A stretch of DNA of 64,000 nucleotides, from contig JASHNQ010000112.1 of NCBI GenBank assembly GCA_030041545.1, forward strand, positions 1-64,000, given 5' to 3'. How positions within the stretch are numbered: the stretch's first letter is position 1; every line of letters starts with the position of its first letter. The notes below the pieces were generated by a model that made no database searches, was not told the origin of the DNA, and saw only the letters and a list, made by a program, of their open reading frames with translations. This document shows positions 6,014 through 24,417 of the stretch, piece after piece. This DNA comes from a candidate division FCPU426 bacterium (GTDB taxonomy: Bacteria > Oederibacteriota > Muellerivitia > Muellerivitales > Muellerivitaceae). Position numbers and translations under genes: made by a program.

Positions 6014-6507
6014 ATGCCTCAAAATCCGTTAGCAGGGTTTCTCAAGGGCCTGTTTGGCCGCCCAACACACCCCTCCCCGCAGGCCCCCCCTATGCCGAGG
6101 CCACCAGCCGAGGCAAGAGTCTTGGGTGCATCGGAGCAAGTTGGAGGCTCCGATATCCCCCGGTCCCAGCCGACCCTCGAAACGCCCTCTTTAAATAAAA
6201 TAGTAGTACGCAGAAAGCCGTTACCCCACTCCCCACCTCCGAAGCCTACCTGAACCGCAAAAAAGGCCGGAAGAATTTCCGCGACAGTTACGCGGATGCA
6301 CGGAAGCTTTATGAGGGCATCCAGCGCAGGGGTGAGGCCTCGCCCGGGGACCTGGCCCAGGAATCGGGGATGGCCCGGAGTACCCTGGCCTACCACCTGA
6401 AACGGCTGGCCAAGTATGGCTACATTGAGCGCCTGGGCGGTGGCCGCAGCATCCGCTACCGGGCCACGGGAAAGCCCTTAGGCAGGATTGATGAAGGAAC
6501 CGTGTGA
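6014..6507 (+). pseudogene. Frameshifted winged-helix regulator
   Basis: ATG 6014 opens a frame encoding a Pro-rich N-terminus (MPQNPLAGFLKGLFGR...) that stops at 6253. The continuation is in another frame, open from 6199 to TGA 6507, and encodes a winged helix-turn-helix. Its core is DLAQESGMARSTLAYHLKRL followed by a wing YIERLGGGRSIRYRATG. The second frame has no ATG or GTG start, so the gene appears split by a frameshift between about 6199 and 6250. A truncated copy of its 3' part lies at 7586-7698. A sequencing error or a recoding event cannot be excluded. Confidence 0.6.
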
Positions 6508-15820: not shown

Positions 15821-16526
15821 AAATTTTGTCCGTCGATCAAAAAGATTGATATGGATCATTCTTGGAAGGGACTTTTATTCAAGGCTGGACTTGAATTGCC
15901 CACGTGAAAGGTTGGGATCGGAATATGGTGGCTGGAGTATTGCGAAGGGAAAGTTACGGAAAAATTCAATTATTTATTCTTTTGGACTTGGTGAAGATAT
16001 TTCTTTTGACCTGGAATTGATAAAACAATACGGGGTGATAGTCCATGGCTTTGATCCAACTCCGAAATCTGTGCAATGGATTCATGCACAAAGCCTTCCG
16101 GAAAAATTCATCTTCCATGAATATGGAATATCAGATTTTGATGGCTTTCTGACTTTTTACGCCCCGGCCAACCCAAATCACGCTTCCTTTTCTATGATTA
16201 AGGAATCGTCAAACGCAAAAAAATCAGTTGAAGCTCGAGTAAAGAAACTTGCCACAATCATGCTGGAATTTGGGCATGAGAAGATCGATCTTTTAAAAAT
16301 GGATATTGAAGGTGCCGAGTACAGCGTTATTGGTGACTTGGCGGCATCGGGAATTAAACCGGATCAAATCCTTGTAGAGTTCCACCATCGGTTTTCAGGC
16401 GTGAACCTTCGAAAAACAAAAGAGGCGGTTGATAAACTTCGGGCAATGGGTTACGGGCTATATTCGGTTTCTCCCAATGGCGAAGAGTACTCGTTTATTT
16501 TGATGAAAAATCAAGCAAAAACTTGA
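15798..16526 (+). CDS. FkbM-family methyltransferase
   Basis: The 242-residue protein has the FkbM SAM-dependent methyltransferase layout: IIYSFGLGEDISFDLELI (SAM-binding glycine loop), VHGFDPTPKSV (acid after strand 2), then LLKMDIEGAEYSVI. The last motif is the hallmark of the family. It should O-methylate a sugar of the island's glycan. I chose ATG 15798 because the FkbM-like hydrophobic start follows it; the frame is open upstream to a TTG at 15768. The last gene of the AT-rich island. Confidence 0.85.
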   Translation: MGIVDFFKNFVRRSKRLIWIILGRDFYSRLDLNCPRERLGSEYGGWSIAKGKLRKNSIIYSFGLGEDISFDLELIKQYGVIVHGFDPTPKSVQWIHAQSLPEKFIFHEYGISDFDGFLTFYAPANPNHASFSMIKESSNAKKSVEARVKKLATIMLEFGHEKIDLLKMDIEGAEYSVIGDLAASGIKPDQILVEFHHRFSGVNLRKTKEAVDKLRAMGYGLYSVSPNGEEYSFILMKNQAKT

Positions 16527-16798
16527 ACCCTAAGATACTTTTGTTTTATCACTTCTGCCACCCTGATGACGTTGTTAGTGCTTGTCACTATACCGACCTT
16601 TGTGAGGGCCTGGCGGCGCGCGGCTATACCGAGTCCAACAAGATATCGGAAAAGTGGGCCGAGCCCAATAGTGATGCCATCGCAGGCTCCGGCATCCCGG
16701 CTCGGCACACACAAGGCACTCTCCTCGGCTTGAGGGCCTCGGAGAAGTGGGAAAGCCTGGCCCCGCTGTCACCATTGCCTATGGGTTTGTCCACCTGA
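16523..16798 (+). pseudogene. Truncated copy of the GT4 gene at 19014
   Basis: The first 34 residues (NPKILLFYHFCHPDDVVSAC then HYTDLCEGLAARGY) repeat the N-terminus of the glycosyltransferase at 19014. The frame then jumps to a segment matching the unusual internal insertion of that gene (AGSGIPARHTQG, then ALRAS-like) and stops at 16798. The rest of the enzyme is missing, so this is an internally deleted relic. Base composition becomes GC-rich from about 16610, marking the end of the AT-rich island. Confidence 0.7.
16652..16760. repeat. Two-hairpin repeat element, copy in the GT4 relic
   Basis: Hairpin 1 has an outer stem CCGAGCC/GGCTCGG and inner stem GATGCC/GGCATC. Hairpin 2 reads TCTCC-TC-GGC-loop-GCC-TC-GGAGA. 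The copy at 19805 has the same layout with different but complementary stems (CCGGGCC/GGCCCGG, GGTGCC/GGCACC, GCCCC/GGGGC). The loops and the ACAC-CAAGGC spacer are similar. This pattern of paired changes shows that base pairing is conserved. No transposase is nearby. Confidence 0.65.
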
Positions 16799-16848: not shown

Positions 16849-16890
16849 TTGACACTGTCATAATCTAACAATTAAAGTTAAATTATGACA
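16849..16890 (+). promoter_or_regulatory. Promoter and inverted repeat overlapping the ATPase start
   Basis: TTGACA (16849-16854) is followed after 18 bp by TAAAGT (16873-16878). An inverted repeat, TGTCATAATCTAAC (16856-16869) and GTTAAATTATGACA (16877-16890), matches at 13 of 14 positions. It covers the promoter and includes the ATG of the ATPase gene. It may be an operator for self-control or an RNA hairpin that hides the start, because no normal ribosome-binding site is present. Confidence 0.5.
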
Positions 16891-18096
16891 CGGTACTTTC
16901 CCCGCGAAATGACCCCCCGCCTGCGGGAGGCCCTGGGCGAAATGCCGGTCGTGGTATTGACCGGACCGCGCCAGGCCGGGAAAAGCACCCTCCTCCAGAG
17001 GGACCCGGTTTTTCGCGGCAGGCGTTACGCCACCTTCGACGATTTGGCCACGCTGGAAGCCGCCCGGCGGGATCCGGAAACCTTCCTGGGGGAGGGGCCC
17101 CTGACCCTGGACGAGGCCCAACGGTTCCCGGAAATCCTGGTGGCGGTGAAGCGGGTGGTGGACCGTGCCCGGCGGCCCGGCGCCTTCTTATTGAGCGGTT
17201 CAGCCAATTTCCGCCTCCTGCGGGGCGTCTCGGAAAGCCTCGCGGGCCGGGCCGTCTACCTTGACCTCCAACCCTTCACGTCCCGCGAGACCGGCGGCAG
17301 GACGGCCCATCCGCCGGCGCTCCTGGGCTTGCTGGAGGGGAGGCCTCCCTTGGGGAAATTCCCGCCTTTTGATTTCGGGGCGGTGCTCAAGGGCGGCATG
17401 CCCAGCGTGGCCCTGGGGGAAGTGAAAAAACCCGGTATTTGGTTCCAAGGCTATGTCCAAACCTACCTGGAAAGGGACCTGAGGGACCTTCGGCACGTTG
17501 GCGACCTGGCGGCTTTCCGGCACCTGATGAGGTTAACCGCCTTGAGGAACGGCGGCATCCTGAAGGTTTCGGAACTGGCCCGGGACGCGAAGATGAACGT
17601 CATGACCTTATCCCGTTACCTTTCGTTGTTGGAGACATCCTTCCTGGTGCGGCGCCTGCCGCCTTATTTGGGAAACCAGGCGGTCCGCCTCGTTAAATCA
17701 CCCAAGCTTTATTTCACCGATTCCGGCTTGGCCGCCCACTTAGCGGGGATGGACGGCTCCGCGGCCGATCATCCCTTGAGGGGAGGGCTCCTGGAGAATT
17801 GGGTGGTCCAAAACCTGTTGGCCTTGTCCGAGGCCCATTTCGCGGATGCCGAGGGGGCCTACTGGAACATCCAAGGCCGTCATGAGGTAGATTTCGTCCT
17901 GGAGGCCGGCAAGCGGGTATTGGCCGTGGAGGTGAAGCAGGGGGCGATTTCCCGGGATGAGGATTTGAGGGGCCTGAAGGCCTTCCAGGACGCCCAAAAA
18001 GGGCCTGTGACCGGTATACTGGCCACCACGGGAAAGGAAACCTTGCCCCTGGGGAAGAATCTTTGGGCTGTTCCTATTCCGGCGCTGTTATCCTAA
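16885..18096 (+). CDS. AAA ATPase with DUF4143 domain
   Basis: The 403-residue protein has Walker A LTGPRQAGKSTLLQ (residues about 26-39) and Walker B GPLTLDEAQRFPE (about 72-82). An ALRNGGILKVSELARDAKMN helix-turn-helix-like part follows, then the C-terminal DUF4143 nuclease-like region, with LLENWVVQNLL and EVDFVLEAGKRVLAVEVKQG. The E-VD...E-K pattern recalls PD-(D/E)XK nucleases. These genes are common in mobile or rapidly turned-over regions and their function is unclear. The start lies inside an inverted repeat. Confidence 0.85.
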   Translation: MTRYFPREMTPRLREALGEMPVVVLTGPRQAGKSTLLQRDPVFRGRRYATFDDLATLEAARRDPETFLGEGPLTLDEAQRFPEILVAVKRVVDRARRPGAFLLSGSANFRLLRGVSESLAGRAVYLDLQPFTSRETGGRTAHPPALLGLLEGRPPLGKFPPFDFGAVLKGGMPSVALGEVKKPGIWFQGYVQTYLERDLRDLRHVGDLAAFRHLMRLTALRNGGILKVSELARDAKMNVMTLSRYLSLLETSFLVRRLPPYLGNQAVRLVKSPKLYFTDSGLAAHLAGMDGSAADHPLRGGLLENWVVQNLLALSEAHFADAEGAYWNIQGRHEVDFVLEAGKRVLAVEVKQGAISRDEDLRGLKAFQDAQKGPVTGILATTGKETLPLGKNLWAVPIPALLS

Positions 18097-18147
18097 AACC
18101 CGTAATCCGCTTTTCTGCGAAAATTGCAAAAAATAGGCCATTTACCC

Positions 18148-18381
18148 CGTTAAAAGCTTTTTTCTTTTCGGCCCACGCGGCACGGGCAAGCCCACATGGG
18201 CGAAGCGGATATTTCCCGGGGCCCATCGGATCGATTTGCTCCAATCCAACGTCTTCCGGGCCTACGCCGCCCGTCCCGAACGCCTCAAGGAAGCGGTTGG
18301 TGCCGCCGGAATGGAACGGACCGTCGTCATTGACGAAGTCCGGAAGGTTCCAGCCCTGCAGCCGATGATCCATCCGCCTTG
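18148..18381 (+). pseudogene. Remnant of a second AAA/DUF4143-type ATPase
   Basis: A frame open from 18148 to TGA 18381 encodes an N-terminal ATPase fragment. It reads KSFFLFGPRGTGKPTW, a Walker A in which the usual Ser/Thr after Lys is Pro, then DLLQSNVFRAYAARPERLKE and a Walker B VVIDEVRKVP. There is no start codon and the protein ends right after Walker B. The sequence differs from the intact ATPase upstream, so it is a separate decayed gene. The altered Walker A supports loss of function. Confidence 0.65.
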
Positions 18382-18394
18382 AAGGATGAAAATC

Positions 18395-19013
18395 ATGCCT
18401 AAAGTTCTTATCCTTTATCACTACGGATTCGACTCCCTTCGGTCGCCCACCGCAGGCTACCCTGATAAGGTGAAGGACAAGCTATGAAAATCCTTGTCCT
18501 TTATCATTATTACAGCCCGGATGATGTGGCACCCATTCTTACAATTGGAATGGGTACCCCCAAATCGTATGCCTCGGCTGGTGGCCTTGGCACAGGGAAA
18601 CATCATCTGGACTCGATAAAGGACGGCGACGCCTAAAATTCTTGTCCTTTATCATTATTACCGGCCAGATGATGTGGCACCCATTCCTGCAATGGGAATG
18701 GGTGCCCCCAAATCGTATGCCTCGGCTGGTGGCCTTGGCACAGGGAAACATCATCTGGACTTGATAAAGGACGGCGATGCCTAAAATTCTTGTCCTTTAT
18801 CATTACTACAGTCCAGATGATGTGGCACCCATTCCTGCAATGGGAATGGGTACCCCCAAATCGTATGCCTCGGCTGGTGGCCTTGGCACAGGGAAACATC
18901 ATCTGGACTTGATAAAGGACGGCGATGCCTAAAATTCTTGTCCTTTATCATTACGGATTCGACTCCCTTCGGTCGCTCACCGCAGGCTACCCTGATAAGG
19001 TAAAGGACAAGCT
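18395..19013. repeat. Tandem palindromic array of glycosyltransferase 5' ends
   Basis: Five units precede the gene at 19014 and each starts with a copy of its 5' end (AAATTCTTGTCCTTTATCAT and variants). Type A units: 18395-18483 and 18931-19013. Type B units: 18484-18634 (151 bp), 18635-18782 and 18783-18930 (148 bp each). Each unit folds back. GTCCTTTATCA pairs with TGATAAAGGAC. In B units AGTCCAGATGATGT pairs with ACATCATCTGG-ACT. The B units enclose two more hairpins (CCCATTCC/GGAATGGG and TGCC-TC-GGC/GCC-TT-GGCA). The A units enclose the GATTCGACTCCCTTCGG repeat. Confidence 0.85.
18484..18636 (+). CDS. Mini-ORF of repeat unit B1
   Basis: ATG 18484 opens 50 codons beginning MKILVLYHYYSPDDV, identical to the N-terminus of the enzyme at 19014. 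Repeat-encoded residues follow (GMGTPKSYASAGGLGTGKHH), then TAA. Its ATG overlaps the TGA of a similar 30-codon frame starting at 18395. A related 51-codon frame runs from ATG 18777 to TAA 18931. Unit B2 has ACG in place of ATG. It may be translated, but could be only a by-product of repeat growth. Confidence 0.3.
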   Translation: MKILVLYHYYSPDDVAPILTIGMGTPKSYASAGGLGTGKHHLDSIKDGDA

Positions 19014-19017
19014 ATGA
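18925..19017 (+). CDS. Mini-ORF directly coupled to the GT4 gene
   Basis: ATG 18925 opens 30 codons, MPKILVLYHYGFDSLRSLTA and so on, ending at TGA 19015-19017, which overlaps ATG 19014 of the glycosyltransferase (ATGA). Its own start overlaps the TAA of the preceding B3 frame. If translated it would couple the array to the downstream enzyme. Only the frame structure supports it. Confidence 0.35.
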   Translation: MPKILVLYHYGFDSLRSLTAGYPDKVKDKL

Positions 19018-20357
19018 AAATCCTTGTCCTTTATCATTATTACAGTCCAGATGATGTGGTCTCCGCGCGGCATTACACCGACCTTTGTGAGGGCCTGGTT
19101 CAACGAAATTGGGAAGTCGAAGTCTGGCCGGGAAACCGGGCCTGCCATCCCCCTTCGCAAAAACCCACTAACGTAGAGCTTCGGGGGACAGGCCGGGCTT
19201 CAAACCCATATTCCACCCAACCTGGGATGATCAACGGGGTGATGGTAAAGCGGGTTTGGCGGCCTCCTTTGAGCCAACATTCCGCCTTCGGCCGCATCGC
19301 CAATTCCCTCTGGCTCCAAAGGGCCTGGAAAAACCGGCTGAAATCCTCTTCCTATGCCCCGGACGTGATCCTGATCGGCACCGACCCGGTGTTGGCCCTT
19401 TCCTGCGCGCCCGCACTGAAAGCCCTGAGGCCCAAGGCCAAGATCGTCCATTGGTGCTTCGACCTTTACCCCGAAGCCGCGGTGGCGGACGGCGCGGTGG
19501 GGGAGGGAAGCACGCTGGTGAGGATGGCCCGGGAGCGCATGGCCAAGGGTTACGCGGCCTGCGACCTGGTGGCGGATTTGGGACCCTGCATGAAAGAAAA
19601 ACTAAAAAGTTACCAAGCGAAAAAGGGTGAAACGTTGACGCCCTGGGCCCTTAAGGAACCAGAAGAGCCGCTCCCATTCAACAAGGACGAACGCAAGGAT
19701 CTTTTCGGCGAGGCTTCCTTGGGTCTGCTTTACTCGGGCAGTTTCGGCCGGGCCCACGAATTCTACATGACCCTAAAACTGGCCCAAAGGATGAAGGAAG
19801 ACTTAGCCGGGCCCGGTGATGGTGCCTCCGCGGGCTCCGGCACCTCGGCCCGGCACACCCAAGGCTTGCCCCTCGACGCGAGGGCCTCGGGGCAGGGGGC
19901 TATTTTCTGTTACGCGGCGAGGGGAAGCCGCATGGAGGCGCTCCGGAAAGCCCGTAACCCCGAATACACCAACGTGCGCTTCGGATCCTTCGCCGCCGAG
20001 GAAAAGCTGGAGGCGCGGCTGGCGGCTCCCGACGTGCACCTGGTTTCCTTAAGGCCCGAGTGGGCCGGCATCGTGGTTCCTTCGAAGTTCTTCGGCGCAT
20101 TAGCCGTGGGCCGGCCCGTTTTGTTCGAGGGCCCCGGGGATTCGGATGTGGCGCTTTGGATCAAGGAATACGGGGTGGGCTGGGTCTTGACCCATGACAA
20201 CCTGGAGGAGGTCCGGGAAGACCTGTTGAAGTTCGCCAGGAGCCCCCAACAGAAAAGCGATATGTTCAACCGGTGCCACGAAGTTTACCAAGCCCACTTT
20301 TCAAGAGCCGCTGTGATCTCCCATTGGGATGAGGAACTTCGATCCCTCTTGTCTTAA
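19014..20357 (+). CDS. Glycosyltransferase family 4 with an in-frame repeat insertion
   Basis: The 447-residue GT-B enzyme starts MKILVLYHYYSPDDVVSARH. Later conserved parts are IVHWCFDLYPEAAVADGA, LGLLYSGSFGRAHEF, then FCYAARGSRMEALRKAR, DVHLVSLRPEWAGIVVPSKF and ALAVGRPVLFEGP. Between residues about 265 and 297, GPGDGASAGSGTSARHTQG and following Ala/Gly-rich residues interrupt the fold. This stretch is encoded by the two-hairpin repeat also found at 16652. The reading frame continues through it, so the enzyme may still work. The ATG overlaps the last mini-ORF of the tandem array. Confidence 0.85.
   Translation: MKILVLYHYYSPDDVVSARHYTDLCEGLVQRNWEVEVWPGNRACHPPSQKPTNVELRGTGRASNPYSTQPGMINGVMVKRVWRPPLSQHSAFGRIANSLWLQRAWKNRLKSSSYAPDVILIGTDPVLALSCAPALKALRPKAKIVHWCFDLYPEAAVADGAVGEGSTLVRMARERMAKGYAACDLVADLGPCMKEKLKSYQAKKGETLTPWALKEPEEPLPFNKDERKDLFGEASLGLLYSGSFGRAHEFYMTLKLAQRMKEDLAGPGDGASAGSGTSARHTQGLPLDARASGQGAIFCYAARGSRMEALRKARNPEYTNVRFGSFAAEEKLEARLAAPDVHLVSLRPEWAGIVVPSKFFGALAVGRPVLFEGPGDSDVALWIKEYGVGWVLTHDNLEEVREDLLKFARSPQQKSDMFNRCHEVYQAHFSRAAVISHWDEELRSLLS
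19805..19905. repeat. Two-hairpin repeat inserted in frame in the GT4 gene
   Basis: The insert contains hairpin 1 (GCCGGGCC/GGCCCGGC outside, GGTGCC/GGCACC inside), the spacer ACACCCAAGGCT, and hairpin 2 (TGCCCC-TC-GAC-loop-GCC-TC-GGGGCA). Compared with the copy at 16652 the stems differ by compensatory changes. It adds about 33 codons between MKEDL and FCYAARG without a stop or frameshift. Confidence 0.65.
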
Positions 20358-23665: not shown

Positions 23666-24417
23666 ATGGGGTCAGCCCGGAAATCCGCGAAAGCCTTTGA
23701 CCGACTGAAAAGCGGAGCCATTCCAGCCTATATCCGTACCCCACTCCCGAACAGATCCCCCGGAAGATACGGCTGGACAATGTCGTGCGGGATAGGAGTT
23801 GGTAGGCGAACTAACAAAGCATCGGGCAGGAGATCAAAGCCAACCCAAACCCAGGGGCGGCCCGGTTGAAGGTGGATAGGATGAAGGTTAACCGGGTCAT
23901 GAGGATATTGGGGGTCCTCAATGAGGCCGCCCGGAGGCTGGTTTTAGAGAATCTCCAAAAGTCCAGGGAAAGCCAGGAATCCGAGGGCCAGGTTTTGGAG
24001 AATCCCTAAAAACCGTTGGATAGCAGGTTCCTTCCCGGGATGCGGTTTTAGAGAATCTCCAAAAGTCCAGGAAAAGCCAGGAATCTGAGGGCCAGGTTTT
24101 GGAGAATCTCCAAAACTAGGGGGTAACCCGGCCCCTCCCCGGAACCGGTTTTTGAGAATCTCAAAAAGCCAGGGAATAGCCCGGTTTCCCAGGGCATGGA
24201 TTTTGAGAGTCTCAAAAAAACGGGGGGTAGCCCGGCCCTCTCTCAAAAACCGGATTTTGAGAGTCCCAAAAAGCCAGGGGATAGCCCTGCCTCCCGGGGC
24301 ATGGATTTTGAGAGTCTCAAAAAAGCGGTAACCAACTGGCTCATCAGCGAGAACGCCCTATTTCGGTTGACCGACCTCCACTCATGGCGGGCCGCCGTGG
24401 ACAAATATCTCAAATAA
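23666..24417 (+). pseudogene. Decayed repeat-rich gene
   Basis: Coding-like segments occur in changing frames. AFDRLKSGAIP (about 23691) is followed in another frame by LYPYPTPEQIPRKIRLDNVV, then IGQEIKANPNPGAARLKVDR and RVMRILGVLNEAARRLVLEN. Last comes an intact stretch, 24196-24417, with DFESLKK repeats ending NALFRLTDLHSWRAAVDKYL. Stops interrupt between them (for example TAG in the 23805 region and TAA at about 24007). I do not recognise the family. The pattern of Leu/Arg helices followed by short repeats suggests one former protein. Confidence 0.5.
23938..24330. repeat. Tandem degenerate repeats with TTTTGAGA/TCTCAAAA palindromes
   Basis: About seven units of roughly 50-65 bp each contain a small palindrome that drifts from TTTTAGAGAATCTCCAAAA to TTTTGAGAGTCTCAAAA. 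Each is followed by a GC-rich link such as GCCAGGGGATAGCC. In the last three units the reading frame encodes DFES-L/P-KK plus a Gly/Ser/Pro link, so the repeat was probably coding. Confidence 0.7.

Follow-up and report, generated by a model that had tools for sequence, protein, structure and literature searches.

The array of five repeat units upstream of a glycosyltransferase (GT) gene in a candidate division FCPU426 bacterium probably consists of two dispersed, non-autonomous repeat elements that accumulated within duplicated 5' ends of this gene. The array is real and belongs to a wider family of repeats in related genomes, where the B-type pieces also lie inside other genes and between repeated gene ends. 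All coordinates refer to the window, the whole stretch of 64,000 nucleotides that was analysed; G001 is the genome of a congener of the bacterium studied here.

The array and its surroundings

Reading of the window and repeat finders confirmed an array of five units at 18395-19013 in the order A1-B1-B2-B3-A2 (A B B B A), bearing out the tandem arrangement and the two insert types (three B and two A) described in the initial annotation. Each unit contains the first 25-45 bases of the GT gene at 19014 together with an insert. The features of the array and its surroundings are listed below.

6088..6134, - strand: another core of the dispersed B-type element (63.9 bits)
16523..16798, + strand: diverged GT-head fragment of ~35 codons with a B-type element after it (core 16702-16749), an additional fragment upstream of the array
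18395..18483, + strand: unit A1, with GT head, A-type dispersed repeat (18425-18461) and a UTR-like end with a Shine-Dalgarno sequence
18484..18628, + strand: unit B1, with GT head, B-type two-hairpin element (~18528-18597) and an inverted copy of the GT head
18629..18776, + strand: unit B2, with the layout of B1, ACG as start codon and the element at ~18676-18745
18777..18924, + strand: unit B3, with the layout of B1, the element at ~18824-18893 and inverted arms at 18792-18823 and 18896-18920
18925..19013, + strand: unit A2, with GT head, A-type repeat (18955-18991) and a UTR carrying the enzyme's Shine-Dalgarno sequence; the end of its mini-ORF at 19017 overlaps the enzyme's ATG
18993..19042, + strand: predicted hairpin with the GT Shine-Dalgarno sequence in its stem and the GT ATG and the A2 stop in its loop (-21.3 kcal/mol, z -4.6); absent from the fold predicted for the G001 ortholog
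19014..20357, + strand: GT gene, with weak GT4-like N-terminal domain matches just below the Pfam cut-offs
19805..19900, + strand: in-frame B-type element within the GT gene (core 19850-19897), a stretch missing at the same position of the G001 ortholog, whose element sits elsewhere

The B units, 93-97% identical to one another, form three direct-repeat copies of 171 nt with a spacing of 148 nt; these 171-nt copies are 94-95% identical. Additionally, A1-B1 and A2-enzyme form two direct-repeat copies of 135 nt with a spacing of 530 nt and 95% identity. The TRF score of the array was 850. The chain of mini-ORFs described earlier (18395-18487, 18484-18636, 18777-18931 and 18925-19017), with its stop/start overlaps, was found at these coordinates on reading, as was the ACG that replaces the start codon of B2, which begins at 18629. 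A scan of 18000-19200 for promoter and terminator consensus sequences found none.

Directly past the element, each B unit carries the GT head in reverse complement, followed by the gene's upstream region and then by the start anew. The inverted arms are genuine, but they do not span the whole 40 bases initially assigned to them. In the B units, the arms consist of GTCCTTTATCA plus AGTCCAGATGATGT, an exact match of 25 nt with one 7-nt gap, which is above chance (2 of 20,000 random window pairs reach an equal score); in the A units, the inverted match covers 11 nt (CTTGTCCTTTA; 7 of 20,000 pairs). Folding of a B unit gave the three-way junction that had been predicted for it (DNA, -40.2 kcal/mol, z -7.2).

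A DUF4143 ATPase gene (16885-18096) separates the older GT-head fragment from the array, and by eye it is followed at ~18155-18385 by an apparent N-terminal fragment of a similar ATPase. Searching the genome contigs confirmed no relatives of the GT.

The A insert proved to be a second dispersed repeat when the array was searched against the window's genome and its relatives. Its motif, GGATTCGACTCCCTTCGGTCGCTCACCGCAGG, occurs at 13 other places in the window's genome and at more in the relatives, and the matches often belong to longer repeats.

The B element: distribution, structure and insertion in genes

At ~70 bp, the B insert is a structured element with two hairpins. At E<=1e-4, a first covariance model of its core, built from nine copies, found at least 18 copies in the window's genome and at least 96 copies overall, in 7 of the 8 sampled genomes of the window's family and in 0 of 37 other genomes of the phylum; these copy counts are lower bounds, with the best first-look candidates from the searches and fetched stretches being scored. 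A second, broader model, built from 120 matches, detected the element in all 8 sampled family genomes and in 0 of 36 other genomes of the phylum. An exact core match was present in a public contig of the candidate division FCPU426 bacterium isolate palsa_1180, and the search of viral contigs, plasmids and phages gave no match. As far as sampled, the B element is restricted to one family of candidate division FCPU426.

Most copies share a layout of hairpin 1 (with a variable stem), CA-NNC-AARNC, hairpin 2 and CA-GNN, and hairpin 2 mostly comprises a variable base, a TC/TC internal loop and GGC-TKGTG-GCC. In the core, hairpin 1 is followed by a helix of 3 bp and a conserved AARNCT bulge, with hairpin 2 coming last. 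The NNC/GNN triplets were exactly complementary in 85 of 107 copies. Over 12 stem pairs, 90.5% of cells were paired compared with 67.7% after shuffling, and two-sided changes numbered 273 compared with 68.5 after shuffling and at most 49 in slid controls; the underlying alignment was fitted with a model already holding 7 of the 12 pairs, and the other five, including the NNC/GNN helix, are the cleaner test. Specifically, the three NNC/GNN pairs were 91.6% paired, with 61 two-sided changes. For hairpin 1, 75% of copies but 2% of controls scored 6 or higher. The structure of the element is thus kept while its stem sequences vary. Selection on structure could cause the covariation of the stems, as could repeated correction of the arms by template switching.

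Two candidate properties of the element were rejected. It is open in all six frames in only 7% of copies (mean number of open frames 3.6, compared with 2.7 after shuffling), and a match to the SAM riboswitch (RF00162) scored 28.3 bits against a gathering cut-off of 44.4, on the opposite strand and with a 29-base filler.

By eye, several copies (L114, L132, L135, L117 and L144) seem to be nested in the hairpin-2 loop of another copy, which, if true, would fix the ends of the element. In two species (L067 in G000:C56 and L145 in G001:C11), an apparent tRNA gene 5' end (GGGGTAGCTCAGCTGGTAGAGCAGC) directly adjoins the element on its right.

Many B copies lie within open frames in genes, including 33 of 109 in frames of at least 300 codons, some of these frames being cut by the fetched stretch. 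In-frame insertion was found in QueC, UvrD-like helicases, class I tRNA synthetase, GT and others. Pfam domains of the invaded proteins also include those of a helicase with MrfA/HRQ1 domains and of short-chain dehydrogenases. In the GT gene, the element occupies one position in genomes G000 and G003 and another in G001, and these differing positions show gain or loss of the element. A clear direct repeat (score of at least 20) flanked 5 of 102 copies, compared with 0.9% in controls. Because so few copies show direct repeats, target duplication was rejected as a general property of the element.

Rickettsia palindromic elements (RPE) are repeats of ~100-150 bp that occur both between genes and, in frame, within conserved protein genes (PMC2229807). 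By layout, the FCPU426 element can be likened to RPE and to the Wolbachia coding palindromes, as it is a small palindromic repeat lying in frame within conserved protein genes (QueC, helicases, tRNA synthetase and GT). Unlike RPE, however, it is ~70 bp long with two hairpins and a conserved bulge, belongs to a different phylum, has stems that vary with compensating changes and forms arrays joined to repeated gene ends. The exact 21-base core pattern had no Rickettsia or Wolbachia match among 84,980 species genomes.

REP sequences are short hairpins whose subfamilies have alternative complementary stem residues, some of them in repair or replication genes (PMC3733652). The FCPU426 element resembles them in its short hairpins and alternative stem residues. 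The unpaired GTAG/CGTC tag of REP sequences was at or near background at both ends of the element. The window's genome has 13 Y1_Tnp matches, and no convincing element copy was found within ~1.5 kb of the seven best placed Y1 (RAYT-type) transposases. A RAYT association was rejected, with no element copy seen beside these seven and no transposase linked to the element. The Y1_Tnp copies on G000 contigs C22, C48, C49, C85 and C95 have near-equal scores; at least three lie in open frames of 315-345 aa, and one has an internal stop.

Bacterial MITEs are small, non-autonomous and dispersed, and they usually carry terminal inverted repeats and target site duplications. The FCPU426 element shares the former properties, whereas target duplications are rare (5 of 102 copies). 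The hairpins lie within each half of the element, and inspection by eye showed no long terminal pair.

No report of the element family was found in the top-ranked titles and abstracts of the open-access literature on FCPU426. The element adds a strongly structured family of coding palindromes, with no report found, in a poorly known phylum.

Repeated gene ends and the proposed growth of the array

The element also lies between repeated gene ends at two more genes, secA and nth. For nth, which encodes endonuclease III, the single tail of G001 lacks the element; G002 carries one element flanked by two tails, and in G000 two elements alternate with three tails, giving 0, 1 and 2 element copies, respectively. 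At the secA tail, there are 0 copies in G006 and G007, 1 in G003 and G000, and 2 in G005. The repeated secA tail measures ~21 nt in G003 and ~66 nt in G000, each with one element. A comparison of the locus in relatives, suggested in the initial annotation, gave a GT locus without the array in G001, and copy number varies among species at secA and nth. The birth and growth of element/gene-end arrays can be traced in this series of related genomes (nth 0/1/2, secA 0/1/2 and GT 0/5).

When the flanks of ~100 copies were compared, long duplications were found at nth, secA and the GT array only. Because so few of the ~100 copies show it, insertion does not automatically produce a gene-end duplication. 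The duplicated ends may mark those insertions into important genes that were tolerated by selection, as the gene is still present in one intact copy.

Under the best explanation, the B element is non-autonomous, palindromic and REP/RPE-like, gene ends are duplicated along with it, and expansion proceeds by template switching and slippage. The element inserts into genes in frame, and insertion at a gene end can be accompanied by duplication of this end, leaving one intact gene copy. The duplicated part is the head, upstream, in the case of GT and the tail, downstream, in the case of secA and nth. Slippage during replication, or unequal recombination, would then add or remove copies of the direct repeats. 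In the B units, the inverted arms fit one template-switch round trip, in which the nascent strand would have folded back across the hairpins, copied the gene head in reverse and rejoined the upstream region of the gene at the shared AAGGAC. One such fold-back with its return would account for the inverted arm and the tandem copy together. The comparisons show the element family with its covarying structure, the in-frame insertions, the gene-end duplications and the copy-number differences between species, whereas we infer in what order the events took place, the template switch and the element's mode of movement.

Template switching has been discussed for the formation of coding palindromes (PMC6649704). 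Quasi-palindrome template-switch mutations similarly leave inverted copies near hairpins, whereas the GT array combines inverted copies with tandem duplication of the gene head. The earlier suggestion of a self-expanding palindrome is retained in part: secA and nth likewise have arrays of the element with repeated gene ends, in species-variable copy number, but the core is a dispersed element. A palindrome made of the gene end alone was discarded, since the core is dispersed and inverted gene arms like those of the B units, which are specific to this array, were found at none of the other ~100 element copies.

Alternative explanations

Several points count against the explanation favoured above: few of the ~100 copies come with a gene-end duplication, inverted gene arms occur in this array only, and no transposase is linked to the element. 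The secA tails do so too, as a simple dead-duplicate model does not predict tail copies that differ only synonymously. All differences between the tail copies were synonymous in both G000 (8 of 8; L063/L202, G000:C75) and G005 (13 of 13; L173, G005:C60). Moreover, when the second secA tails of two genera are compared, the last 11 codons show 7 differences, every one of them synonymous. In a simple simulation, the neutral probability of seven synonymous-only differences was <1e-4, for a stretch picked after the alignment had been viewed. In the two genera, the secA tails on either side of the element resemble sequences that are both kept under protein-level selection. Three accounts are conceivable: translation of both tails, exchange of the ends with functional copies coming in from elsewhere, or a displacement that happened recently. 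This synonymous-only divergence poses a sharp, testable puzzle.

The pattern in all three secA comparisons would suit an exchange of cassettes, in which units of gene end plus element pass between species via short homology and functional incoming ends displace the resident end. However, a cysteine is missing from both tail 2 and tail 3 of nth in G000, as expected for dead copies, and no donor was seen. We regard such an exchange as unlikely. There is a similarly small chance that the palindromic element invades gene ends while bringing a functional gene-end copy, in which case the host protein would stay intact, both ends would be under protein-level selection, and arrays would build up as cassette-like duplication or swapping of termini.

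Control of the enzyme by a coupled leader formed by the mini-ORFs or at least by A2, in which translation of A2 would melt the hairpin that hides the enzyme's Shine-Dalgarno sequence and output would depend on leader translation, is a rather improbable role for the array. It would agree with the ATGA overlap of the A2 stop with the enzyme start and with the position of the Shine-Dalgarno sequence in the strong predicted hairpin, a counterpart of which is predicted at A1-B1 (-23.6 kcal/mol, z -5.0). However, the same-genus G001 ortholog has neither the hairpin nor the array, B2 has lost its ATG, and such overlaps arise automatically when a gene start is repeated together with its upstream region. 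Because the G001 ortholog is without the hairpin and the B2 start is lost, a five-step ladder is unlikely. Of the translational ladder proposed initially, the step from A2 to the enzyme is structurally plausible from the predicted hairpin, but the chain is broken at B2; one coupled leader (A2) is possible on the folding model.

Phase variation, in which slippage would alter the number of units and turn the enzyme on or off, is very improbable. The 148-nt tandem direct repeats, 93-97% identical, are prone to copy-number change, and copy numbers at nth and secA do differ between species. However, the array lies entirely upstream of the enzyme's ATG, and gain or loss of whole units would leave the frame, the Shine-Dalgarno sequence and the start unaltered; frame-based phase variation is therefore not supported, and neither is the switch suggested in the initial annotation.

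An assembly artefact is hardly credible: although the genome is a draft of 115 contigs and the repeat unit is about as long as a short read, the units show 3-7% divergence among themselves and carry two insert types, the array is internal to an 83-kb contig, and similar arrays exist in other, separate genomes.

A second palindrome-rich tandem array was observed in the window at 23940-24355, with four units of ~104 nt around GAGAATCTC-type inverted repeats.
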